Source of the DNA: a virus
Virus record (IMG/VR): IMGVR_UViG_3300032213_001039
Location: 1-27,486 of that record
DNA: 27,486 bases
Direction: 5' to 3' (one strand)
Made by a program: the position numbers and the translations under genes. Numbering within the stretch: the stretch's first letter is position 1; each line of letters starts with the position of its first letter. Shown here in pieces: positions 3,149 through 24,874 of this stretch. A model generated the notes under the pieces. That model ran no database searches. It worked only from the letters and a program-made list of their open reading frames with translations, and was not told the DNA's origin.

Positions 3149-4737
3149 TGGGCATCCGATCCTCGATCCTCGGCTGGCTGCAGCGCGGTACGGCACCAGC
3201 ACCGGCACCCCGGCGGCGGATGTACCAGGGCGCGATGGTCAGCCGACTGACCAGCGACTGGGTGACGGGCGGCACCAGCGCCGACGCTGAGATCAAGGGC
3301 AGCCTTCCGCGGCTGCGGAACCGCTCGCGGCAGCTGGTGCGCGATAACGACTACGCGCGGCAGGCGATCCGCGCAGTCAAAAACAACGTGGTGGGCACCG
3401 GCATCAAGATTCAGGCGCAGGTGCGGATGGTGCGCGGCGGCGGGCGTTTGGACCAGTCGGTGAACGACGCGATCGAGAGCGCGTGGAAGGTCTGGAGCAA
3501 GAAGCAGCACTGCCACACCGGCGGCCGGCTGAGCTGGCATGACATGGAGCGCCTGGTGATCGGCGCGATGGCCGAGTCGGGCGAGGTGTTCCTGCGCAAG
3601 GTGCGGCAGCCGTTTGGCGGCGGGAAGGTGCCGTTTGCGCTGGAGGTGATCGAGTCGGATCTGCTCGACGACACCTACACGGGCAGCAGCACAATCAACG
3701 GCAACGAGTGGCGGATGGGGGTCGAGTGCGACCGCTGGGGCCGGCCGGTGCAGTATGCGTTTTTGAGGAAGCACCCCGGCGACGGCCAGTTTCAGGGGCA
3801 GCCTGGGGCACGCCACCAGCTGATCCCGGCGGCCGAGATCATCCACCTCTACCTGATGGACCGGCCCGGCCAGACCCGGGGCGTGCCGTGGCTGGCGACT
3901 GCGATCCAGCGGCTGCACCACCTGGCGGGCTACGAGGAGGCGGAAGTGATCCGCAGCCGGGCCTCGAGCGCGCTGATGGGCTTCATCGAATCACCAGAGG
4001 GCGAGCTGCAGGGCGATGAGGTGGTGGACGGCGAGCGGGTGTCGAACTTCGAGCCCGGCGTCTTCAAGTACCTGGCCCCCGGCGAAAAGGTGACGGTGCC
4101 GCAGCTCGACGCACCGGATGGGCAGTTTGAGCCATTTCTGCGGGCCATGCTGCGGGGCATGGCGGCCGGCGTTGGGTGCAGCTACGAGAGCATCAGCCGC
4201 GACTTCAGCCAGACCAACTATTCCAGCAGCCGGCTGTCGCTGCTCGAGGATCGCGATCACTGGCGCGCGCTGCAGCAGTTCCTGATCGAGAACCTGCACC
4301 AGCCGGTGTTCGAGGCCTGGCTGGAGATGGCGGTGCTCGGCGGTGCGCTGAACCTGCCGTTCTACGAGACCGATCCAGAGCGCTACCGGGCAATCCGGTG
4401 GATGCCCCGCGGCTGGGCATGGGTGGATCCGGCCCGGGAGGTGCAGGCCTACAAGGACGCAGTGCGCTGCGGCTTCAAGACGTTGGGCGAGGTGGTGGCC
4501 GAGCAGGGCGGCGACCTCGAGGAGCTGCTGATGGCCCGGGCAGCTGAGCTCGCGATGACGAATGACCTCGACCTGACCTTCGACACCGACCCGCATGAGG
4601 TGAACGCCTCAGGCACGCAGCAGGCGGGCGATGTGACCGAGGACCAGGCCGAGGAGATGGATCCGGCGAGTGACCCGGACTTGGCCGACGATAATGGGGA
4701 AGACAACACCGAGGGCACCGATGGACCTATCGCGTGA
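3148..4737 (+). CDS. Portal protein (lambda gpB family)
   Basis: This protein forms the dodecameric ring at the capsid vertex through which DNA is packaged and to which the tail connectors bind. Its 529 residues match lambda gpB (533). Typical features are an N-terminal region with RDNDYARQAIRAVKNNVVG, a central wing and stem, and the GVGCSYESISRDFSQTNYSSSR segment near residue 345. The last 45 residues are strongly acidic. Its TGATG start couples it to the W-like gene, and its 3' end overlaps the start of the capsid fusion gene by 17 bp. Confidence 0.95.
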   Translation: MGIRSSILGWLQRGTAPAPAPRRRMYQGAMVSRLTSDWVTGGTSADAEIKGSLPRLRNRSRQLVRDNDYARQAIRAVKNNVVGTGIKIQAQVRMVRGGGRLDQSVNDAIESAWKVWSKKQHCHTGGRLSWHDMERLVIGAMAESGEVFLRKVRQPFGGGKVPFALEVIESDLLDDTYTGSSTINGNEWRMGVECDRWGRPVQYAFLRKHPGDGQFQGQPGARHQLIPAAEIIHLYLMDRPGQTRGVPWLATAIQRLHHLAGYEEAEVIRSRASSALMGFIESPEGELQGDEVVDGERVSNFEPGVFKYLAPGEKVTVPQLDAPDGQFEPFLRAMLRGMAAGVGCSYESISRDFSQTNYSSSRLSLLEDRDHWRALQQFLIENLHQPVFEAWLEMAVLGGALNLPFYETDPERYRAIRWMPRGWAWVDPAREVQAYKDAVRCGFKTLGEVVAEQGGDLEELLMARAAELAMTNDLDLTFDTDPHEVNASGTQQAGDVTEDQAEEMDPASDPDLADDNGEDNTEGTDGPIA

Positions 4738-6610
4738 TCTTGAAGGGCAGCTGCTGAAGCGCGCCGCAGTCGCTGACTTCACGGTCAGCGAAGACGAGCG
4801 CACCATCGAGTTCCCCTTCTCTTCTGAATATCCCGTCGCCCGTTACTTCGGGAACGAGATCCTGGCCCACACCGGTGAGGCGGTGGATCTGGCCCGCCTC
4901 TCTGATGGCGCGCCGTTGCTGTTCAACCATGACCCGGCCCGGGTGATCGGTGTGGTCGAGCGGGCCTGGATCGACGGCAAGAAAAAGCGCGGCTATGTGG
5001 CCGTCAAGTTCAGCCGCAACGCTTTCGCTCAGGAAGTATTGGCCGACGTGAAAGACGGCGTGCTGCGCAATGTGTCGGTCGGCTACCAGATCGCCGACAT
5101 GGAACAACGCGGCGAAGACTTCGTGGCGACTCGCTGGAGTCCCTACGAAGTGAGCGTGGTTAGCATACCCGCAGACCCAACGGTCGGCGTCGGGCGTGCT
5201 CTCGACGCTCAACCTGCGGCCCCCGCCGCAACTCCAACCCCCCAACCAGAACCTGAGGTTCCGATGGACAACACCCCTGACATCTCAGCGGTGCGGGCTG
5301 AAGCGGCTGCCGAGGCTGCTAAGGCTGAGCGCGCCCGCATTGCCGGCATCTCTGCCCTGACTGAAAAGCACGGGATGGCCGATCTTGGCCGCCAGCTGAT
5401 CGAAGGCGGCCGCAGCCTCGATGAAGCCCGCGCTGCTGTGCTCGACAAGCTGGGCATCAAGCCCGTCGAGACCGTGGCCCCTGTTGAAATGGCCGCTCAA
5501 GAGCGCGCCGGGTACAGCATCACCGCTGGCATCCGCGCCATGCTGACCGGCGACTGGTCCAGCCGCGAGGCCGGCCTGGTGCGTGACCTCTCCCGCGAAG
5601 TGGAGAAGTCCGGCGTCGCCAAGACCACCGAGCGGAGCTTCTTCGTTCCCTTCTCGGCTCTGGGCGGCCAGCGCGCCACCTACGTGACCTCCGGCGCCAC
5701 CACCGGCGGCAACCTGGTTGCCACCGACCTGATGGCCGATGAGTTCATCGAGTTTCTCCGCAACAACGCGGTGATGCTCCAGCTGGGCGTGCGCACCATG
5801 CCTGGCCTGGTTGGCAACGTGGCGATCCCCCGCCGTTCCGGTGTGGCTTCGACCTACTACCTCAGCAGCCAGACCACCGCGATCACCCAGTCGGAATCGA
5901 CTTTCGATCAGGTGACCCTGGCGCCCAAGAACCTGGCCGCCCTGTCCAAGTACAGCCGCCAGACCCTCCTGCAGGGCACCCCTGGCATCGAGGAGCTGGT
6001 CCGTCGTGACCTGACCGATGGCATCAACCTCGCCATCGACCTCGGCATCATGAACGGCTCCGGCTCCAGCGGCCAGCCCACCGGCATCATGCAGACCTCC
6101 GGCATCGGCTCGGTGGCCATGGGCACCAACGGCGGCGCTGTGACCCTCGAGAAGGTGGTCGATCTGGAAGCTGCCGTGATGAACGTCAACGGCGCCGTCA
6201 ACCCCGGCAACGTGGCTTACCTGACCAACTACAAGGTGCTGGCAGCCCTGAAGAAGCTGCGCGCTGGCGGTTCCACCACCGGCGACGGTCCCTTCCTGTT
6301 CAACGCTGATGCAGCCCGCATCGGCCGCGGCCCGACCCCCGGCACCCTGAACGGCTACCCTCTGGCCGCCACCAACCAGGTTCCTAGCAACCTGACCAAG
6401 GGCAGCAGCAGCGGCGTCTGCTCCGCTCTGCTGATGGGCGACTTCAGCCAAGCCATCGTCGGCTTCTGGGGCAACGGCCTCGAGATCACCGTGGGTGAGG
6501 ACCAGGACGACTTCAGCAAGGCTCTGACCAGCGTTCGCGGCATCGTCACCTATGACGTGGCCGTGCGCGATCCCAAGAGCTTCGCCGCCATCCTGGACAT
6601 CACCACCTGA
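4721..6610 (+). CDS. Prohead protease-major capsid protein fusion
   Basis: One reading frame carries two head functions. Residues 1-165 are an HK97-type prohead protease (peptidase U35 family), with probable catalytic H70 in LFNHD and S119 in NVSVGY. A Pro/Ala-rich linker (about 165-185) and a charged helical delta/scaffold-like region (about 185-265) follow. The remainder, about 365 residues, is an HK97-fold major capsid protein with GNVAIPRR and a typical C-terminal TVGEDQDDFSK region. Self-cleavage near residue 265 would release the capsid subunit and destroy the scaffold during maturation. The ATG at 4721 is preferred; GTG 4670 and ATG 4694 are upstream in-frame alternatives inside the portal gene. 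No separate scaffold, protease or decoration gene is present. Confidence 0.93.
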   Translation: MDLSRDLEGQLLKRAAVADFTVSEDERTIEFPFSSEYPVARYFGNEILAHTGEAVDLARLSDGAPLLFNHDPARVIGVVERAWIDGKKKRGYVAVKFSRNAFAQEVLADVKDGVLRNVSVGYQIADMEQRGEDFVATRWSPYEVSVVSIPADPTVGVGRALDAQPAAPAATPTPQPEPEVPMDNTPDISAVRAEAAAEAAKAERARIAGISALTEKHGMADLGRQLIEGGRSLDEARAAVLDKLGIKPVETVAPVEMAAQERAGYSITAGIRAMLTGDWSSREAGLVRDLSREVEKSGVAKTTERSFFVPFSALGGQRATYVTSGATTGGNLVATDLMADEFIEFLRNNAVMLQLGVRTMPGLVGNVAIPRRSGVASTYYLSSQTTAITQSESTFDQVTLAPKNLAALSKYSRQTLLQGTPGIEELVRRDLTDGINLAIDLGIMNGSGSSGQPTGIMQTSGIGSVAMGTNGGAVTLEKVVDLEAAVMNVNGAVNPGNVAYLTNYKVLAALKKLRAGGSTTGDGPFLFNADAARIGRGPTPGTLNGYPLAATNQVPSNLTKGSSSGVCSALLMGDFSQAIVGFWGNGLEITVGEDQDDFSKALTSVRGIVTYDVAVRDPKSFAAILDITT

Positions 6611-13544: not shown

Positions 13545-14263
13545 GCTGGCGCGACGCTGCACTCGAGCACGCGAAGGCAGAGGATCCGCGCGAAGCCTGC
13601 GGCCTGCTGGTGGTCGTCAAGGGCCGCGAGCGCTACTGGCCGTGCCGCAACCTGGCCGCCGGCGCCGAGCAGTTCATCCTCGATCCGCTTGATTTCGCCG
13701 CGGCCGAGGATGCCGGCGAGATCACCGCGGTGGTGCACAGCCATCCCGTTACCCCGCCGCTGCCCAGCCAGGCCGATCTGCTGGCCATCGAGGCCACCGG
13801 GCTGCCGTGGTGGATCGTCAACCCCAAAACCGAGGCATGGAGCCCTGAGCTGTGCCCCAGCGGCTACCAGGCGCCGCTGATCGGCCGCGAGTGGACCTGG
13901 GGCATCACCGACTGCTGGACGCTGGCGCGCGACTGGTACGCCGAACACGGCCTGCAGCTTCCCGATTGGGACCGGCCACTGACGCCAGAGCAGTTTGAGG
14001 CTGACCCGCTGTTCGATCGCTACTGGAAGGATGCCGGGTTCCGCGAGCTGGACGACGACGAACCGCTCGAGCCGGGCGACGCGCTGCTGATGAGCATCAC
14101 CGGGCCGGGGCTGAACCATGTCGGGGTCTACATCGGCGACCAGCTGGTGCTGCATCACATCCGCGGCCGGCTGTCGAGCCGCGACCTGTACGGCGGCTGG
14201 CTGCTGAAATGCACTGGCCGCCGGCTCCGGCACTACGATGCAGGGAGGCTCGAGCTGGGCTGA
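13541..14263 (+). CDS. Tail protein K-like: JAB/MPN protease plus NlpC/P60 hydrolase
   Basis: The 240-residue product has two enzyme domains, as in lambda gpK. Residues about 5-100 carry a JAMM metal site: E18, the HSH pair H66 and H68, and D79 in SQAD. Residues about 115-235 are NlpC/P60 with C125 in [12 protein letters not shown]193 in LNHVGVYIG and H205. All key residues are present, so both domains look active. It is expected at the tail tip, where it may process tail proteins and cleave peptidoglycan peptides at infection. ATG 13541 overlaps the L stop; a longer open frame upstream lies inside L and is rejected. Confidence 0.93.
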
Positions 14264-14847
14264 TGCTGCGCACGATCCGCATCTATGGGCGCCTGGCCAA
14301 GTTCCTCAAGCGCCGGAGGTTTGAGGCCGAGGTGAGCAGCGCGGCCGAGGCCGTGCGTTTTCTGCTGGCCAACTTCCCGCAGCTCGAGAAGCACATGGCG
14401 CAGCAGCACTACCGGGTGACGGTGGGCAGCTACGACCTGGCCGAAGCCGAGCTGCACGACCCGGCAGGCAGCCAAGAGATCAAGATCATCCCCGTCGTCG
14501 CTGGTGCCGGCGCGGTGGGTCGCATCATCGCCGGCGTGGCGCTGATTGCGCTGGCCACTGTGGTGAGTTTTGGCACCCTAACGATTGGTGCAACTGCCAT
14601 CGCTCTGAATGGTGTCGTGTTCGGGATTGGCGCCGCTTTGGCGCTTGGCGGCGTGGCGCAGCTGCTCACGCCAGTGCCAACGATGAACGGCAGCATGACG
14701 GACACCAACAAGGATCCCCGCAAGAGCTACAGCTTCTCCGGCGTGCAGCAAACAAGCCGCGCAGGTGTGCCCGTGCCGATTGTCTACGGCGAGACGCTGG
14801 TCGGCTCGGTGGTGATCTCGGCCGGCATCGACACGGTGCAGACATGA
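14263..14847 (+). CDS. Tail assembly protein I-like
   Basis: The 194-residue product corresponds to lambda gpI (223). Its N-terminal 85 residues form a ubiquitin-like fold pattern (TIRIYGRLAKFLKRRRFEAE, then AVRFLLANFP and YRVTVGSYDL). A Gly/Ala/Val-rich hydrophobic stretch (about 80-140) follows, and the C-terminus has the family's PVPIVYGETLVGSVVISAGI. It acts in assembly of the tail tip and is placed, as in lambda, between K and J. The start is a TGATG overlap with K, with GGGAGG upstream; the stop overlaps the J ATG. Confidence 0.9.
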   Translation: MLRTIRIYGRLAKFLKRRRFEAEVSSAAEAVRFLLANFPQLEKHMAQQHYRVTVGSYDLAEAELHDPAGSQEIKIIPVVAGAGAVGRIIAGVALIALATVVSFGTLTIGATAIALNGVVFGIGAALALGGVAQLLTPVPTMNGSMTDTNKDPRKSYSFSGVQQTSRAGVPVPIVYGETLVGSVVISAGIDTVQT

Positions 14848-17800
14848 GCAGGATCGTCGGCGCTGGTGGTGGTGGTGGGTGCTTCCTAGGCCACACTCTT
14901 GTGCGCGTGCCCGATGGCATTCGCCGGATTGATGAGCTGCAGGCTGGCGATGCAGTCCTGAGCTTTGACGACCAGGGCCAGCTGCATCAAGCCACGGTTC
15001 TCAAGGTCCACATCCACGAAGGCGAGCGCGTGGTGCGCTACCGCCTGTGGGGCGGCGCGGTGCTCGATGCCACCCCGAACCACTGGGTCCTGAACCAGTT
15101 CAACGCCTTCGTCGAGATCGGCACGCTCGGCGCCGACGACTGCCTGGTGGATGAGAACGGTCACCTCCGGCCGATCGTTGAGCGCACCGAGCACGGCTGC
15201 GGCACGGTCTACAACCTCACGGTCGAGGGTCATCACACCTTCATTGCCGGCGGCATCAGGGTGCACAACGCAGGCCTTGGGCTCGGCATTGTCGGCGCAG
15301 GTGGCGGCGGCGGCGGCGGTGGCGGCGGCGGCAAGGGTGATGGCGGCGGCACCACCTACACCCCCACCGAAGCGGGCGACACGCTCAACAGCACGCAGTA
15401 CGCCAACCTGGTTGACCTGATCAGCGAGGGCGAGATTCAGGGGCTGAAGAACGGCCACCAGTCGATCTACGTGGACAACACGCCGCTGCAGAACGCAGAC
15501 GGCTCCTACAACTTCAAGAACGTCACCGTCACCACCCGCAACGGCACGCAGAACCAGACCTATATCCCGCTTACGGCTGACATCGAGAACGAGAAGCCGG
15601 TGGGCGTGCAGGTGTTGCAGGCCACGCCGGTAGTCCGCAGCATCACCAGCAACACGGTCAACGCGGCACGTATCACGATCACCTCGCCAGCGCTGCAGGA
15701 ATTCCCGTCCAACGGCGACATTATCGGCTCCAGCTTCAGCCTGGACATTCAGGTTCAGTACAACAGCGGCGGCTACACCACCGTTCTGTCCGACACGGTA
15801 TCGGGCCGCAGCGGTGACCAGTTCCAGCGGGACTATCTGGTGCCGTTTACGGGCGCGTTCCCGGTCGATGTGAAGGTGATCCGCACCTCGGCCGACAGCG
15901 GAACATCAAGGGTTCAAAACTCGTTCAGCTGGTCCAGCTACACCGAGATCACCTACGCCAAGCTGCGCTACCCGAACAGCGCGCTGGTGGCGTTGCGAGT
16001 GGACGCCGAGCAGTTCAATTCGATCCCTAACCGCAGCTATCTGGTGCGCGGCATCAAGGTGGCTATTCCCAGCAATGTCACGGTTGACTCGACCACCGGG
16101 CGGTTGATCTATGCCGGCGTCTGGAACGGGTCCTTCGGTGCTGCAGCGTGGACCACTGACCCGTGCTGGATCCTGTGGGATCTGCTCACCTCGACCCGCT
16201 ACGGCTTTGGCGATCACATCCAGGCCGCACAGCTGGACAAGTGGGCCTTCTACGCCGCCAGCCAATACGCCTCGACCCTGGTGCCGGATGGCTTCGGGGG
16301 CACCGAGCCGCGCTTCTCCGCCAACATCAACATCCAGACGCAGGAGGACGCCTACAAGCTGATCAACGACATGTGCTCGGTGTTTCGGGCCATGCCCTAC
16401 TGGTCCACCGGCGCGCTCACCGTCAGCCAGGACAGCCCGGCCGATCCGGCCTACCTGTTCACCTACGCGAACGTCTCTGAAGAGGGTTTCAGCTATCAGG
16501 GGGGCAGCCTCAAGACCCGGCCGACAGTGGCGGTGGTCAGCTACCTGAACCTCGACAAGCGCGACATCGACTACGAAGTGGTCGAGGACCAGGACGCGAT
16601 CGGGAAGTACGGCGTCGTCACCCGCGAGATCTCGGCGTTCGCCTGCACCAGCCGCGGCCAAGCGCACCGTTTGGGTGAGTGGCTGCTCTATTCAGAGTGG
16701 TACGAGAACGAAGTGGTGAGTTTCACCGCATCGATCGACGCCGGCGTGCTGGTGCGCCCTGGCCAGATCATCGAGATTAGCGACCCGATGCGTGCCGGTG
16801 TGCGCCGCGGCGGCCGGATCAGTGCAGCCACCACCACGGCCATCACCGTGGACGACGCCACCGGGCTCACATTGAGCCTCGGGGCAACGCTGTCGGTGAT
16901 CCTGCCCAACGGCACCGTGCAGAGCCGGGCGGTCAGCGGCATCGCCGGCAACGTGATCACGGTTTCCAGCGCCTTCAGCACAGCGCCAAACGCAAACAGC
17001 ATCTGGGTCTACGAGACCACCGACATCCAGACCTCGACCTGGCGGGTGCTGTCGGTGCAGGAGCAGGACGGCGCGCAGTACGCCATCAGCGCGCTGGCCT
17101 ACAACGCCAGCAAGTACGGCTACATCGAGCGCGACCTGCAGCTCGAGCAGCGCGACATTACCAACCTCAACGAAATCCCGCCGGCGCCGACCAACCTGCA
17201 GGCGATCGAGGCGCTCTACGAAAACAACGGCCGGGCACTGTCGAAGCTGGTGCTGAGCTGGCAACCGGCGCCGGCGGTCAACCAGTACCGCGTGCGCTGG
17301 CGTGCGGCGAATGGCAACTGGACCACAGCGACGCAGACCCGCCTCGACTACGAGATCCTCGACACCACTGCCGGCCGGTACGAGATCGAGGTTTACAGCT
17401 TGAACGCAGGCCTGCGGCAATCGGTGGCGCCGGCCAGCCTGACGGTGCAGGTTTTTGGCAAGACCGCACTGCCGGTGGCCGTCACCGGCCTATCTCTGAT
17501 CCCGATCGATGGAGCCAGCGCCATCCTCAGCTGGGATCGCAGCGACGAGCTCGACGTGCTGCTGGGCGGCAAGGTGTTGATCCGCCACAACGTCGCGCTG
17601 AGCGGTGCGCTGTGGGAAGAAAGCCAGGAGATCGTGGCCGCAGCTGCCGGCAGCCAGACGCAGAAGCAGGTGCCGCTGCTCGAGGGCACCTATTTGGTGA
17701 AGTTCGAGGACGACGGTGGCAACCGGTCGCTGGCGGCCACCACGGTGGTGGTGAACCTGCCCACACCGCAACCGCGGCAGCTGGTGCAGTCCTATGCCGA

Positions 17801-18578
17801 GGAAACCGAGACACCGCCGTTCAGCGGCAACTACACCGACATGTTCTACGTCGCCAATCTGGCGGAAGCTGGCGGCGCCAGCGGCATCATCCTGAGCAAC
17901 GGCGTGGCGGTGGATGCCATGGCCACAAACGGCAACTGGGATGGCTTGCCGTCGATCGACAGCGTGGGCGGCGTGCGGCCTGAGGGCGAGTACGAGTTCG
18001 GCTCGACCTATGCCTTCCCGGGCATCTTCGACTGCAACCTGCGCCGGCGGCTGGTCACCATGCCCTACCTGCCCGGCGACTTCTGGGATGACAACACCGA
18101 CCTGATCGACAGCTGGGACTTCATCGACGGCACTGGCGGCGATCGGGTCAACGCGCTCACCTATGTGCGCACCACGCAGGACGACCCGAGCGGCGCACCG
18201 ACCTGGAGCACCTGGCGCGAGTTTGCCAACGCGATCGTGCGAGGCCGTGGCTTCCAGTTCAAGACCATCGCCACCAGCACCGACCCGGCGCAGAACATCA
18301 TCATCGAGCAGCTGGGCACCGAAATGGAGCTGCAGCAGCGCACCGAGCAGTCAGCAACGCTGACAAGCGGCGCGGGCACCTATACAGTCACCTTCACGAA
18401 CGCGTTCTTCTCAGCACCCAGTGTTGGGGTCACAGGGTTCAACATGGCCACCGGCGACTACTTTGCGATCGCTTCCGTGACGCGGACCGGATTCCAGGTA
18501 ACCTTTAGGAACAGTGCCGGCACCGCCGTGAGCCGTCAGTTCACCTACACCGCCATCGGGTTCGGGAGGCAGATCTAG
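14844..18578 (+). CDS. Tail tip / host-specificity protein J with N-terminal Hint (BIL-like intein) domain
   Basis: The 1244-residue product is the central tail-tip protein that contacts the host. Residues 1-12 (MSRIVGAGGGGG) precede a self-processing Hint domain, residues 13-142. A second IVGAGGGGG with a longer Gly run follows, and the J body begins at TPTEAGDTLNSTQYANLVDL. The body shows the conserved LISEGEIQGL opening, the hub region to about 760, two FN3-like domains (about 778-870 and 875-970) and a beta-rich C-terminus. Without the Hint domain the length is 1114, close to lambda gpJ (1132). The start overlaps I by ATGA, and the fibre gene follows after 3 bp. The J identity is firm; processing by the Hint domain is inferred. 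Confidence 0.93.
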   Translation: MSRIVGAGGGGGCFLGHTLVRVPDGIRRIDELQAGDAVLSFDDQGQLHQATVLKVHIHEGERVVRYRLWGGAVLDATPNHWVLNQFNAFVEIGTLGADDCLVDENGHLRPIVERTEHGCGTVYNLTVEGHHTFIAGGIRVHNAGLGLGIVGAGGGGGGGGGGGKGDGGGTTYTPTEAGDTLNSTQYANLVDLISEGEIQGLKNGHQSIYVDNTPLQNADGSYNFKNVTVTTRNGTQNQTYIPLTADIENEKPVGVQVLQATPVVRSITSNTVNAARITITSPALQEFPSNGDIIGSSFSLDIQVQYNSGGYTTVLSDTVSGRSGDQFQRDYLVPFTGAFPVDVKVIRTSADSGTSRVQNSFSWSSYTEITYAKLRYPNSALVALRVDAEQFNSIPNRSYLVRGIKVAIPSNVTVDSTTGRLIYAGVWNGSFGAAAWTTDPCWILWDLLTSTRYGFGDHIQAAQLDKWAFYAASQYASTLVPDGFGGTEPRFSANINIQTQEDAYKLINDMCSVFRAMPYWSTGALTVSQDSPADPAYLFTYANVSEEGFSYQGGSLKTRPTVAVVSYLNLDKRDIDYEVVEDQDAIGKYGVVTREISAFACTSRGQAHRLGEWLLYSEWYENEVVSFTASIDAGVLVRPGQIIEISDPMRAGVRRGGRISAATTTAITVDDATGLTLSLGATLSVILPNGTVQSRAVSGIAGNVITVSSAFSTAPNANSIWVYETTDIQTSTWRVLSVQEQDGAQYAISALAYNASKYGYIERDLQLEQRDITNLNEIPPAPTNLQAIEALYENNGRALSKLVLSWQPAPAVNQYRVRWRAANGNWTTATQTRLDYEILDTTAGRYEIEVYSLNAGLRQSVAPASLTVQVFGKTALPVAVTGLSLIPIDGASAILSWDRSDELDVLLGGKVLIRHNVALSGALWEESQEIVAAAAGSQTQKQVPLLEGTYLVKFEDDGGNRSLAATTVVVNLPTPQPRQLVQSYAEETETPPFSGNYTDMFYVANLAEAGGASGIILSNGVAVDAMATNGNWDGLPSIDSVGGVRPEGEYEFGSTYAFPGIFDCNLRRRLVTMPYLPGDFWDDNTDLIDSWDFIDGTGGDRVNALTYVRTTQDDPSGAPTWSTWREFANAIVRGRGFQFKTIATSTDPAQNIIIEQLGTEMELQQRTEQSATLTSGAGTYTVTFTNAFFSAPSVGVTGFNMATGDYFAIASVTRTGFQVTFRNSAGTAVSRQFTYTAIGFGRQI
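14880..15269 (+). other. Hint domain (mini-intein/type A BIL-like) inside J
   Basis: This 130-residue in-frame insert covers residues 13-142 of the J-like protein. Block A is CFLGHTLVRVPDG followed by IDELQAGDAVLSFD, with nucleophile C13. Block B is LDATPNHWVL, with the TxxH pair T77 and H80. The last blocks are VYNLTVEGHHTF (H131) and IRVHN (H141, N142). The residue after N142 is Ala, not Cys/Ser/Thr, which is a feature of bacterial intein-like (BIL) domains rather than standard inteins. There is no homing endonuclease or room for one. All catalytic residues for N- and C-terminal cleavage are present. Confidence 0.92.
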
Positions 18579-21816: not shown

Positions 21817-22908
21817 ATGGCCAACGCCGCACCGATCACGCTTGAGCAGCTGTTCCGCTTCAATCGCGGACTGCCGCACCAGCTGGCAGCGATCGCGCTG
21901 CTTGAGCAGGATCTGGCCGTCAACGGCTACGCCGCCGCGATGCGCCGCGATCGGGCATGGTTCAACACCTGGAGCCAGGACGGCAAGCAGGTGGACCTGG
22001 CGGCCGCTCTCAAGCTGATCAAGCAGTTTGAAGGCTTTCACCTTGAGGCCTACCCCGACCCGGCCAGTGGCGGCGACCCGTGGACGATCGGCGTTGGCAC
22101 CACCCGCTACAGCGACGGCCGGCCGGTCAAACGTGGCGACAAGATCAACGCGGTCGAGGCCGACATGCTGCTGCGGCAAGAAGTCGATCGGATCGCCGAG
22201 AAGTTGCGCACCACCATCCCGGCCTGGTCAGAGATGGCCGACCACCAGAAGTGCGCGCTGATCAGCTTCGCCTACAACCTCGGCGATGGCTTCTATGGCG
22301 CCGAAGGGTTCGAGACGATCAGCAAACGGCTGCGCGAGAAAGACTGGGCCAAGGTGCCCGACGCGCTGCTGCTCTACCGCAACCCCGGCACCAACGTCGA
22401 GGCCGGCCTGAAGCGCCGCAGAAAGGCCGAGGGCAGCCTGTGGAACCATGGCAAGGCACCGACGCAACCTGAGCAGGCTTTGCCCTACAAGGTTGGCCCG
22501 GCGGATCCGTTCAGCACCAAGCTGTCAGCGCATTTCACTCTTGGCGAGTTTGCGCTGGGTGATCCGGCCCGGCGGTTCATCGCGCAACATCAGATCGACA
22601 CCGCAGCCGAGCTGGCAGCCTTCCTCGAGCGGGTGCGGGTGGCCTTCGGCGGCAAGCTCATCACGATCACCTCCGGCTACCGACCCGCAGCGATCAACAA
22701 GGCAGTCGGTGGCGCCAGCAGCTCCGAGCATCTTTACGATGCCCCGGGCGTTGGTGCGGTGGATTTCTACGTGGATGGCGCCGACATCTACAAGGTGCAG
22801 GACTGGTGCGATCGCGAGTGGCCCTACTCGCTTGGCTACGGCGCCCCGAAGGGCTTTGTCCATCTCGGCATCCGCCAGGGCCGGCCTAAGGTTCGCTGGG
22901 TCTACTGA
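21817..22908 (+). CDS. Bifunctional endolysin: GH24 muramidase plus M15 peptidase
   Basis: The 363-residue product degrades peptidoglycan for lysis. Residues 1-58 are a helical N-terminal segment. Residues 60-220 are a GH24 lysozyme with catalytic E72, D81 and T90 (FEGFHLEAYPD...WTIGVGT), spaced as in T4 lysozyme apart from a 3-residue insertion. A linker near 221-238 leads to an M15_3-type D-Ala-D-Ala peptidase: ITSGYRP, zinc-ligand candidates H305 and D316 (SEH...AVDF) and H349 in FVHLGIR. The H305-D316 spacing is four residues longer than the usual SxHxxGxAxD. No signal peptide or SAR segment is visible, so it should depend on a holin. Confidence 0.93.
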   Translation: MANAAPITLEQLFRFNRGLPHQLAAIALLEQDLAVNGYAAAMRRDRAWFNTWSQDGKQVDLAAALKLIKQFEGFHLEAYPDPASGGDPWTIGVGTTRYSDGRPVKRGDKINAVEADMLLRQEVDRIAEKLRTTIPAWSEMADHQKCALISFAYNLGDGFYGAEGFETISKRLREKDWAKVPDALLLYRNPGTNVEAGLKRRRKAEGSLWNHGKAPTQPEQALPYKVGPADPFSTKLSAHFTLGEFALGDPARRFIAQHQIDTAAELAAFLERVRVAFGGKLITITSGYRPAAINKAVGGASSSEHLYDAPGVGAVDFYVDGADIYKVQDWCDREWPYSLGYGAPKGFVHLGIRQGRPKVRWVY

Positions 22909-22915
22909 CCAGCGC

Positions 22916-23431
22916 ATGATCCTGCCCGACTATGAGATCCACCACCTGTGCAGCAAGCACGCGATGGTGGTGCCGTTCGATCCCGAGCTGCTCAACCCCG
23001 CCAGCATCGATGTCCTGCTGGGTGATCGGTTGATGGTGGAAGTTGAGTATCGCCACGACCTGGAGATCCTCGGCATCGCCCACTACACCCAGGCTGATCC
23101 TTACTGGCTGGCGCCGGGTGAGTTCTGCCTGGCGGAAACCCGCGAGATCTTCAACCTGCCGGATTTCATCGCGGCGCAGTTCGTGCTCAAGTCCAGCCGC
23201 GCGCGAGAGGGCCTCGAGCACCTGCTGGCTGGTTTCTGTGATCCTGGGTGGCATGGCAGCCGGCTGACGATGGAGCTCAGCAACGCGCGCCGCTATCACT
23301 CGATCCCGATCTGGCCCGGCATGAAGATCGGCCAGATGGTCTTCCAGAAGATGCAAGGCATCCCAGCCAGCACCTATGCGGTGACCGGCCGCTACAACCG
23401 GGATGAGGCGGTCACCGCCAGCAAGGGCTAA
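22916..23431 (+). CDS. dCTP deaminase/dUTPase-family protein
   Basis: The 171-residue product belongs to the trimeric Dcd/dUTPase fold. Motifs present are SIDVLLGD (near 30), LKSSRAREGL (91-100), GFCDPGWHG (106-114), LTMELSN with the probable deaminase Glu E120, and IWPGMKIGQMVF. The motifs fit dCTP deaminase better than plain dUTPase because the substrate-pocket Glu is present. It would supply dUMP/dUTP for dTTP synthesis or limit dUTP. It is the last gene of the late operon, an unusual place for a nucleotide-metabolism gene. ATG 22916 follows the endolysin stop by 7 bp. Confidence 0.87.
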   Translation: MILPDYEIHHLCSKHAMVVPFDPELLNPASIDVLLGDRLMVEVEYRHDLEILGIAHYTQADPYWLAPGEFCLAETREIFNLPDFIAAQFVLKSSRAREGLEHLLAGFCDPGWHGSRLTMELSNARRYHSIPIWPGMKIGQMVFQKMQGIPASTYAVTGRYNRDEAVTASKG

Positions 23432-23453: not shown

Positions 23454-23484
23454 AGCCCGGCGGTGCATGACGCCGGGCTTTTTT
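23454..23484 (+). terminator. Rho-independent terminator of the late operon
   Basis: The stem AGCCCGGCG (23454-23462) pairs with CGCCGGGCT (23471-23479) around an 8-base loop and runs into six T residues ending at 23484. It ends plus-strand transcription just before the convergent integrase gene, whose stop codon lies in the T-tract. The minus-strand side lacks a T-tract. Confidence 0.92.
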
Positions 23485-24589
23485 ATGCCACCAGTGCCGC
23501 CACCTTGGCCGCTGCGGCCGCTGCAGCCTCATCGATGAGGTGCGCATACCGCTGGGTGGTCTGCGGGCTGGCGTGGCCCAGCAGGCCGCCGATCTGCGGC
23601 AGGGAGAGGCCGGCGCTTACACCCAGGCTGGCGAAGTTGTGCCGCAGGTCATGCACCCGCAGGTTGCGGATTCCGGCCGCGGCCAGCAGGTCGTCCCACA
23701 TCCGCCAGTAGCCGACCAGGTGGCCGTCATCGTCGCCGGCGATCACCCACTCGCTGTTTGATCGGCGCCGCAGCTGCTCGAGCACGGCCACGGCCGCCGG
23801 CGGCAGATGCACCTTCCGCTCGTCGCCGTCCTGCCCGGTCTTGTGCGCCTCGGCCGGCACCTTCAGCACCGCCAGCTCGAGGTCGATCCACTGCCACCGC
23901 GCGCACATCAGCTCGCGGATGCGGCAGCCGGTGACCAGCAGCAGCCGCACCAGCTGCGCGAACCGCCACCGCACACCAGCCTCGGCGAACGTGTCCAGCG
24001 CCGCCAGCAGCCGCTTCAGCTCGTCGCGGGTCAGATACCGCCGGCGCTTGCGTTCGGTGTTGGCCTGAATCCCCTTGCATGGGTTGGTGCCCTTGGCGCG
24101 GATGCTCCAGAGCTCGGCAAGGTTCATCGCCTTGCGCAGCACCGCCAGCGCGCGGTTCTGCTGGCCGCGGGGAAGCTCCTCGATCATGTCCATCACTTGC
24201 ATGGCCTGCAGCGTGGCAACCTTCTCCGCGCCGATCTGCGGCAGGATGTGCCGCCGCCAGAGCACTTCGTAGCCGGTCGATGTGGAGGCCCGGACGTGCT
24301 TGGCATAGTGCTTCTCTTTCACCAGCTCGGCGAGCTCGGCGATCGTCTTGCCCTGGCGCAGCAGCTGCTTGTCGGTGCCCGGTGCTTCACCCTTGGCGAC
24401 GGCCGCGAGGATCTTGATCGCCTCCTCCCGGGCCATGGTCAGGCTGACCACTTCGGCTCGGCCGATCTTGTGCGTCTGCTGCTTGCCGCTGGGCTCCCGG
24501 TAGCGGACGTAATAGGTGCGGACTCCCGTGGGTAGCACCATCAAGCCGAGGCCGGAGATCTTCCGATCGGGCTGCCATTCGCGCTTCAT
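23483..24589 (-). CDS. int: Tyrosine recombinase integrase
   Basis: The 368-residue enzyme integrates and excises the phage genome. An N-terminal arm-binding domain of the DUF4102-like type (LMVLPTGVRTYYVRYREPSG) is followed by a core-binding domain (about 80-175) and the catalytic domain. From the chosen start the catalytic set is R223 (TGCRIREL), K250 (AHKTG), H313 and R316 (HDLRH), H339 (LLGHAS) and nucleophile Y348 (QRYAHL), all present. ATG 24589 is preferred because GGGAGAG lies 6 nt upstream; the alternative ATG at 24604 has no such site. The attP lies directly upstream, and arm-like repeats overlap the start region, suggesting autoregulation. Confidence 0.94.
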   Translation of the reverse strand: MKREWQPDRKISGLGLMVLPTGVRTYYVRYREPSGKQQTHKIGRAEVVSLTMAREEAIKILAAVAKGEAPGTDKQLLRQGKTIAELAELVKEKHYAKHVRASTSTGYEVLWRRHILPQIGAEKVATLQAMQVMDMIEELPRGQQNRALAVLRKAMNLAELWSIRAKGTNPCKGIQANTERKRRRYLTRDELKRLLAALDTFAEAGVRWRFAQLVRLLLVTGCRIRELMCARWQWIDLELAVLKVPAEAHKTGQDGDERKVHLPPAAVAVLEQLRRRSNSEWVIAGDDDGHLVGYWRMWDDLLAAAGIRNLRVHDLRHNFASLGVSAGLSLPQIGGLLGHASPQTTQRYAHLIDEAAAAAAAKVAALVA

Positions 24590-24603
24590 TTCACGCTCTC
24601 CCA

Positions 24604-24874
24604 TTCGCGCACTATTCGCGCAGATTTGCGCGAACGGCCGGGATCTTGCGCGAACGACCGTGAACGGGTCAATCAGAAAAGGCGTGATGAATCAGAGCGA
24701 TAGTGAAGATTCGTGAACCAACGTGAAGGCTGCGAACGAAGCTGAAAATCGCAGTGTCGGTGGTTCGATTCCGCCCCTGGGCACCAAAAACCGCAGCAAG
24801 ATCAGCCACTTAAACGAACAGCTCAGAGGGGCTGCAGAAGCTCGCCGAAGCCGTTTGCGCACTATTCGCGCAGA
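24604..24874 (+). other. attP region: tRNA-Phe(GAA) 3'-half core with flanking arm repeats
   Basis: The core at 24742-24786 reads as the 3' half of tRNA-Phe: anticodon loop CTGAAAA (anticodon GAA), stem strand TCGCA, variable loop GTGTC, T-arm GGTGG-TTCGATT-CCGCC (24759-24775), acceptor strand CCTGGGC, A, and CCA (24784-24786). The 5' half of a tRNA is absent. The octamer TTCGCGCA or its complement occurs at 24604, 24615, 24627, 24647 and 24865. An 18-bp perfect repeat lies on both sides of the core (24607-24624 and 24857-24874). This is the layout of an attP with P and P' arms; the crossover is probably near the anticodon loop. Apart from the 3' end of the next minus-strand gene (24810 onward), no gene lies in this stretch. 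Confidence 0.85.

Follow-up and report, generated by a model that had tools for sequence, protein, structure and literature searches.

A 27,486-nucleotide stretch of viral DNA (the window) encodes a J-like tail hub protein with a complete Hint domain, probably of the A-type bacterial intein-like (BIL) kind, inserted 12 residues from its N terminus (Table 1). The analysis revealed a Hint fold, a complete active site, near-absolute conservation, patchy presence among relatives and a duplicated N-terminal motif; from these we infer the occurrence of cleavage, the order of its steps and the dominant product. J is probably made as a self-removing precursor, from which a Hint-free J starting at Ala143 (AGLG...) would be released, together with a minor leader-ligated form.

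Table 1 Features of the J locus, in window positions.
Feature	Position	Strand	Size or evidence
I-like tail assembly gene, upstream of J	14209–14847	+	PHROG_32 tail assembly protein, 1.3e-47
J-like tail-tip / central fibre (hub) protein gene, with the Hint domain inside	14844–18578	+	1,244 aa
12-residue leader MSRIVGAGGGGG; first I-x-G-[AS]-G-G copy (native J N-terminal motif); last residue Gly(−1)	14844–14879	+	
Hint (A-type BIL-like) domain, 130 aa, J residues 13–142	14880–15269	+	Profiles, fold, census
Hint landmarks: Cys1; Thr65/His68 (block B); Asn112 (F:4); His119 (block F); His129-Asn130 (block G)			
Cys1 (J C13), predicted thioester-forming nucleophile	14880–14882	+	246/246 distinct copies
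His129-Asn130 (J H141-N142), predicted Asn-cyclisation C-terminal cleavage site	15264–15269	+	246/246 distinct copies
C-flank A-G-L-G, +1 to +4; predicted mature J N terminus if C-terminal cleavage occurs	15270–15281	+	
Second J N-terminal motif copy, I-V-G-A-G-G... through poly-Gly/Lys linker; equivalent to the Hint-less J start	15288–15344	+	

A complete Hint domain in a tail hub protein

The protein had been called J-like, and profile searches agree, with matches to PHROG_31 ('central tail fiber J', 1.3e-243) and to the Pfam families FNIII-A_GpJ (1.8e-33), Phage-tail_3 (1.5e-23) and fn3. An ordinary gpJ homologue, the J core, occupies residues ~165–880 according to these matches. The genes before J are, in order, tape measure, minor tail, L, JAB-NlpC/P60 (K) and I, and the J ATG lies on the stop codon of the I-like gene in an ATGA overlap; J-core homology and a gene order ending in L-K-I-J identify a gpJ-type tail hub. 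The J C terminus (18303–18560, + strand) weakly resembles Gp53-like C-terminal and H-type lectin domains and may form a receptor-binding tip.

Residues 13–142 match Pfam PT-HINT (1.3e-10; 42.1 bits against a cut-off of 27.7), the only Pfam Hint family above its cut-off, and the NCBIfam model intein_Cterm TIGR01443 (26.2 bits against 15.6). The intein N-terminal model, Hint, Hint_2 and Intein_splicing match the same region below cut-off. By sequence, the best solved relative is the bacterial intein-like domain 2lwy (phmmer against the PDB, 5e-9), followed by the Mtu RecA mini-intein. An AlphaFold (AF2) model built from 17 family members has a mean pLDDT of 85, and a Foldseek search with it returned the BIL2 domain of a Tetrahymena BUBL locus first (6y75, 1.4e-10), with 2lwy and mini-inteins among the other matches (E ~1e-10, TM ~0.84 to BIL structures). 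The original prediction, made from the letters alone, had named structure prediction as a possible refutation; the outcome was a Hint fold. Its coordinates and residues (C13, T77/H80, H131 and H141-N142; T65, H68, H119, H129 and N130 in domain numbering) proved exact, and the length and blocks confirm a 130-residue domain that holds all splicing blocks and leaves no room for a homing endonuclease.

Conservation across relatives

Relatives, which make up a family of uncultured tailed phages, are numerous in IMG/VR. Four scans with different Hint queries returned 456, 450, 438 and 431 loci (~450), and a fifth query reached more divergent relatives. A DNA-pattern scan, which gives a sample not ranked by likeness to the window, found at least 117 loci; among the matches listed, 102 were canonical, 6 were cut by a contig end and 9 were divergent or damaged. 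Pooling all loci and removing duplicates gave a census of 246 distinct full-length copies; their domains comprise 228 distinct sequences, with identities to the window's domain as low as 59%. The Hint lies inside a J open reading frame (ORF) in 240 of 240 checkable copies, the other 6 being cut by a contig end.

Across this family, hereafter Hint-J, the domain is 130 residues long in 245 of the 246 copies. Cys1 and the terminal His-Asn never vary; Thr65, Asn67, His68 and His119 are present in 245 of 245 standard-length copies, and Asn112 at position F:4 is invariant. The residues first read from one sequence thus hold across ~246 distinct relatives, and everything needed for both cuts is kept. 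The flanks are almost as constant: Gly at −1 in 245 of 246 copies, Ala at +1 in 244 of 245, and AGLG (234 copies) or AGIG (10 copies) as the C-flank. In a subset of 90 distinct sequences, all four Gly codons are used at −1, all four Ala codons at +1 and all six Leu codons at +3; median pS is 0.61 and the median nonsynonymous difference is 0.13. The ratio of median dN to median dS is ~0.13, indicating purifying selection, with synonymous sites near saturation. Because synonymous sites are near saturation and codons are varied, the constancy of these residues reflects selection and not recent spread.

This conservation bears on whether the domain is cut at all. A Hint that stays in place, exposed at the tail tip in a structural or binding role, has no direct support, and the catalytic positions at both junctions are invariant (245–246 copies), some of them with no other evident role, which makes such a fate very improbable. 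Active-site conservation is equally expected, however, if the Hint is useless to the phage and must delete itself.

Departures from the canonical form are few. The sole exception at +1 is a Ser (HN-SGLG; L302:1840–2310, also in L393 and L394), the only such case found in Hint-J and a natural test of canonical splicing. Decay intermediates are nearly absent, with one each of three kinds: a 115-residue Hint that has lost 15 residues in frame before the HTF motif (L326; a decaying copy or an assembly error), a chimera at a contig start (L339), and a leader out of frame with its Hint in the Gly repeats just upstream of position 6004 (L055; slippage, sequencing error or a real frameshift).

Empty alleles and patchy distribution

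The original prediction had asked which J homologues carry the insert. We collected the 80 nearest J cores regardless of Hint: 28 carry it, 48 do not and 4 are cut before the test point, so that 48 of 76 classifiable alleles are empty. The J core closest to that of the window (87% identity) belongs to an empty allele, L085. In the DNA alignment of the two, the sequences are near-identical up to the first Gly codons, where the insertion begins. On the J-core tree, a quick one supported by SH-aLRT only and in which gain and loss are indistinguishable, presence and absence require at least 11 changes, at least 7 of them forced by well-supported branches. In some pairs the Hint and the J core also differ in age (for L237 against its clade, pS is ~0.55 for the Hint and ~0.35 for the core), a mismatch that points to recombination.

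The cultured cyanosiphophages S-LBS1, S-CBS1 and S-CBS3, the closest by portal or terminase, were considered as empty-allele controls and rejected, as they have neither a recognisable J core nor a Hint. In Prochlorococcus phage P-HS2 (L159), the J core is found as two separate pieces and its annotation is incomplete, which suggests that the J gene is frameshifted or split.

A duplicated motif and the predicted processing

Comparison of alleles, including the L085 DNA alignment, shows one N-terminal motif copy in empty alleles and two in Hint alleles. An empty J starts M-x-x-I-x-G-A-G-G...K-G-G-G. A Hint-bearing J starts in the same way without the Lys, runs into the Hint, and continues as A-G-L-G-x-G and a second I-x-G-A-G-G...K; we found no AGLG in empty J alleles. 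The motif is present in 242 of 246 leaders and follows the Hint in 242 of 242 evaluable copies. Two copies are what would be expected if the one after the Hint is the mature J start. Since this copy is complete, a J cut at Asn142 would have a normal start preceded by AGLGLG.

The two copies within one gene are more alike than shuffled pairs (5.98 versus 5.53 of 8; 0 of 5,000 shuffles), but we do not claim concerted evolution, because the signal comes partly from one clade with Q in both copies. Translation from a downstream start that bypasses the Hint was rejected, as the window has no in-frame ATG, GTG or TTG between Asn142 and the linker; the nearby candidate GTG at Val140 was rejected because most relatives have GTT, GTC or GTA there.

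In type A BILs a thioester forms at the N-terminal end and the chain is cut at the C-terminal Asn, and attack of the freed amine on the thioester can join the flanks (PMC4031507); splicing is possible, and cleavage products dominate (PMC4031507; PMC7664689). By the same chemistry, the precursor, made up of the 12-residue leader, the 130-residue Hint and a complete J with its own second motif, would fold its Hint and then remove it. The acyl group of Gly12 would move to Cys13 as a thioester, helped by Thr77 and His80. Asn142 would cyclise, helped by His131 and His141, and free J with Ala143 as its new N terminus; hydrolysis of the thioester would release the leader. In a minor fraction, the Ala143 amine would attack the thioester to give leader-J without the Hint. 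Both products would begin with the normal IxGAGG-polyGly-Lys start, so that J could function either way.

The residue at +1 had been likened to that of type A BILs, with cleavage or atypical ligation expected in place of standard splicing. Ala in the window and in nearly all copies bears out the likeness, and the missing +1 nucleophile supports the expectation. Ser and Thr are one base from Ala, yet such a change is seen in only 1 of 245 copies; a non-nucleophile is therefore held at +1 by selection, and its persistence argues against selection for canonical splicing. The invariant Asn at F:4 counts in favour of cleavage as well: the Asp that usually stands there has been reported in one intein to restrain Asn cyclisation until the branch forms (PMC4031507). 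Asn at F:4 is not specific to cleavage, since a Vibrio phage intein that has Cys at +1 carries it too.

Conservation of the leader motif is not needed for plain removal. It would fit ligation, constrained translation initiation or exchange with empty alleles by recombination, and it keeps ligation in play as a rival. As the main outcome, ligation would mean that the freed Ala143 amine attacks the Gly12 thioester to give a mature J beginning MSRIVGAGGGGG-AGLGLGIVGAGG..., a mechanism proposed for type A BILs (PMC4031507), for which invariant Gly at −1 and Ala at +1 would be small, unhindered partners. Published BILs mostly cleave, however; ligation alone does not explain the constant second motif copy; and +1 remains Ala although Ser, Thr or Cys would give efficient ligation. 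We regard this outcome as unlikely.

The thioester might also pass the leader to another molecule, such as a neighbouring tail protein, in the manner of hedgehog or BUBL. The closest fold is indeed a BIL of a Tetrahymena BUBL locus, the leader motif is conserved, and in lambda the J N-terminal region adjoins gpL and gpI, where T5 has one continuous chain (PMC10721106). Yet we identified no acceptor and saw no leader-specific partner gene, and Hint-less phages manage without, so the original suggestion that the leader becomes attached elsewhere found no support and such a transfer can scarcely be expected.

Maturation control or tolerated insert

Chemistry and role are best kept separate: self-removal is likely, and its role may be control of maturation or that of a tolerated insert. 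The proposed link between tail-tip maturation and autoproteolysis survives in part. The complete, conserved active site suggests a self-trimming precursor; as a requirement the idea is weakened, since the J of L085, so close in its core, lacks the domain and J is thus able to mature without it. The N-terminal region of lambda J packs alongside gpL and gpI, a combination matched in T5 pb3 by a single chain (PMC10721106). By analogy, a 130-residue domain at this end could hold up assembly until its removal.

A relic or quasi-selfish mini-intein-like insert, one that deletes itself without benefit to the phage and is maintained by recombination between related phages, would account for the repeated changes on the J-core tree, for close relatives that lack the Hint without any other visible change nearby, and for Hints and cores of different ages. 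Against this stand the absence of a homing endonuclease, the near absence of decay intermediates, and a fixed length, −1 Gly and +1 Ala that seem more than self-removal from a Gly linker needs. We hold this reading to be a real possibility, if a somewhat doubtful one. It concerns role and overlaps both product models, so the likelihoods we attach to the rivals and to the favoured explanation together exceed one. More tentatively still, the lambda-type hub may be an autoprocessing precursor throughout the Hint-J family, with removal of the N-terminal BIL timing the entry of J into the tail tip, beside gpL and gpI, and the invariant Gly(−1)/Ala(+1) reflecting selection for cleavage or nucleophile-free ligation and not for canonical splicing.

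If active, the Hint would represent a novel route to the maturation of a receptor-binding hub. Natural matched J alleles with and without it make its cost or benefit directly testable. The ~246 naturally occurring variants, compact at 130 residues and constant in their −1 Gly and +1 Ala, would help in studying how the balance of cleavage and ligation is set in BILs.

Comparison with known Hint systems

By pairwise scores and fold matches Hint-J resembles the A-type BILs, and membership fits every feature tested: fold, Cys1/TxxH, His-Asn and no +1 nucleophile. The Clostridium thermocellum BIL (2lwy), which among solved structures scores best by sequence and is one of the top two by fold, shares the ~130-residue Hint fold, Cys1, TxxH in block B, the C-terminal His-Asn and the lack of a +1 nucleophile. 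Hint-J differs in its near-invariant −1 Gly and +1 Ala and in having a single phage structural gene as host, whereas BILs are reported from variable parts of bacterial proteins that are themselves not conserved (PMC7765530). In the related bacterial and phage Hints compared, +1 is Asp, Tyr, Glu or Ala.

Class 1 mini-inteins (Mtu RecA, gp41-1, Npu DnaB) share the fold, blocks A, B, F and G, and patchy occurrence at one fixed site with empty alleles. Unlike them, Hint-J lacks a +1 Cys, Ser or Thr (one Ser in 245), has Asn in place of Asp at F:4, duplicates the insertion-site motif in its flanks, and sits in a Gly linker instead of a conserved catalytic motif. We rejected assignment to class 1 inteins on the +1 residue, and to homing inteins because 130 residues hold no endonuclease. 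The PT-HINT (PF07591) match is shared with pretoxin Hints; Hint-J precedes a tail hub, not a C-terminal toxin, and we rejected a pretoxin system because the J core domains come next. Inteins are known from phage genes, including those for phiCbK TerL and ribonucleotide reductase (PMC3556154). Like these and the Vibrio phage helicase inteins, Hint-J is a Hint element in a phage gene; they lie in enzymes, with a +1 nucleophile where read (Vibrio HN-C), and none was found in J. Compared with lambda-type gpJ, Hint-J proteins have the same core and add an N-terminal Hint and the duplicated I-x-G-A-G-G.

Among GenBank phages we found no J-borne Hint, the only matches being Vibrio helicase inteins and Ruminococcus phage hypothetical proteins; a plasmid search returned distant BIL/PT-HINT proteins only. 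In the searchable literature, which leaves most subscription journals outside, we found no description of a Hint, intein or BIL in phage J or tail-tip proteins. The domain type is known; what appears undescribed, though this is not proof of novelty, is its location in a phage tail hub, its constant length and −1/+1 residues, the motif duplication and the pairs of alleles with and without it.

Host and other features of the phage

The portal protein is 61–63% identical to those of cyanosiphophages S-LBS1, S-CBS1 and S-CBS3, and the terminase is 47–48% identical to those of S-CBS1 and S-CBS3. Similarities of this kind suggest that the hosts are probably freshwater picocyanobacteria. A scan of genome contigs with the Hint found one locus, on a contig of a cyanobacterial MAG; it has the same length and match position as IMG/VR L060 and is therefore weak evidence of host. 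A tyrosine-recombinase integrase (23483–24604, − strand; Phage_integrase, 3.2e-23) indicates that the phage is probably temperate, and S-LBS1 likewise has an integrase (PMC6157547). The major capsid protein and a prohead protease domain are fused in one ORF (4670–6610, + strand), which matches both Peptidase_S78 and Phage_capsid. A dCTP deaminase-like protein (22448–23431, + strand) carries a long extra N-terminal stretch overlapping the endolysin gene, and its true start probably lies further downstream.
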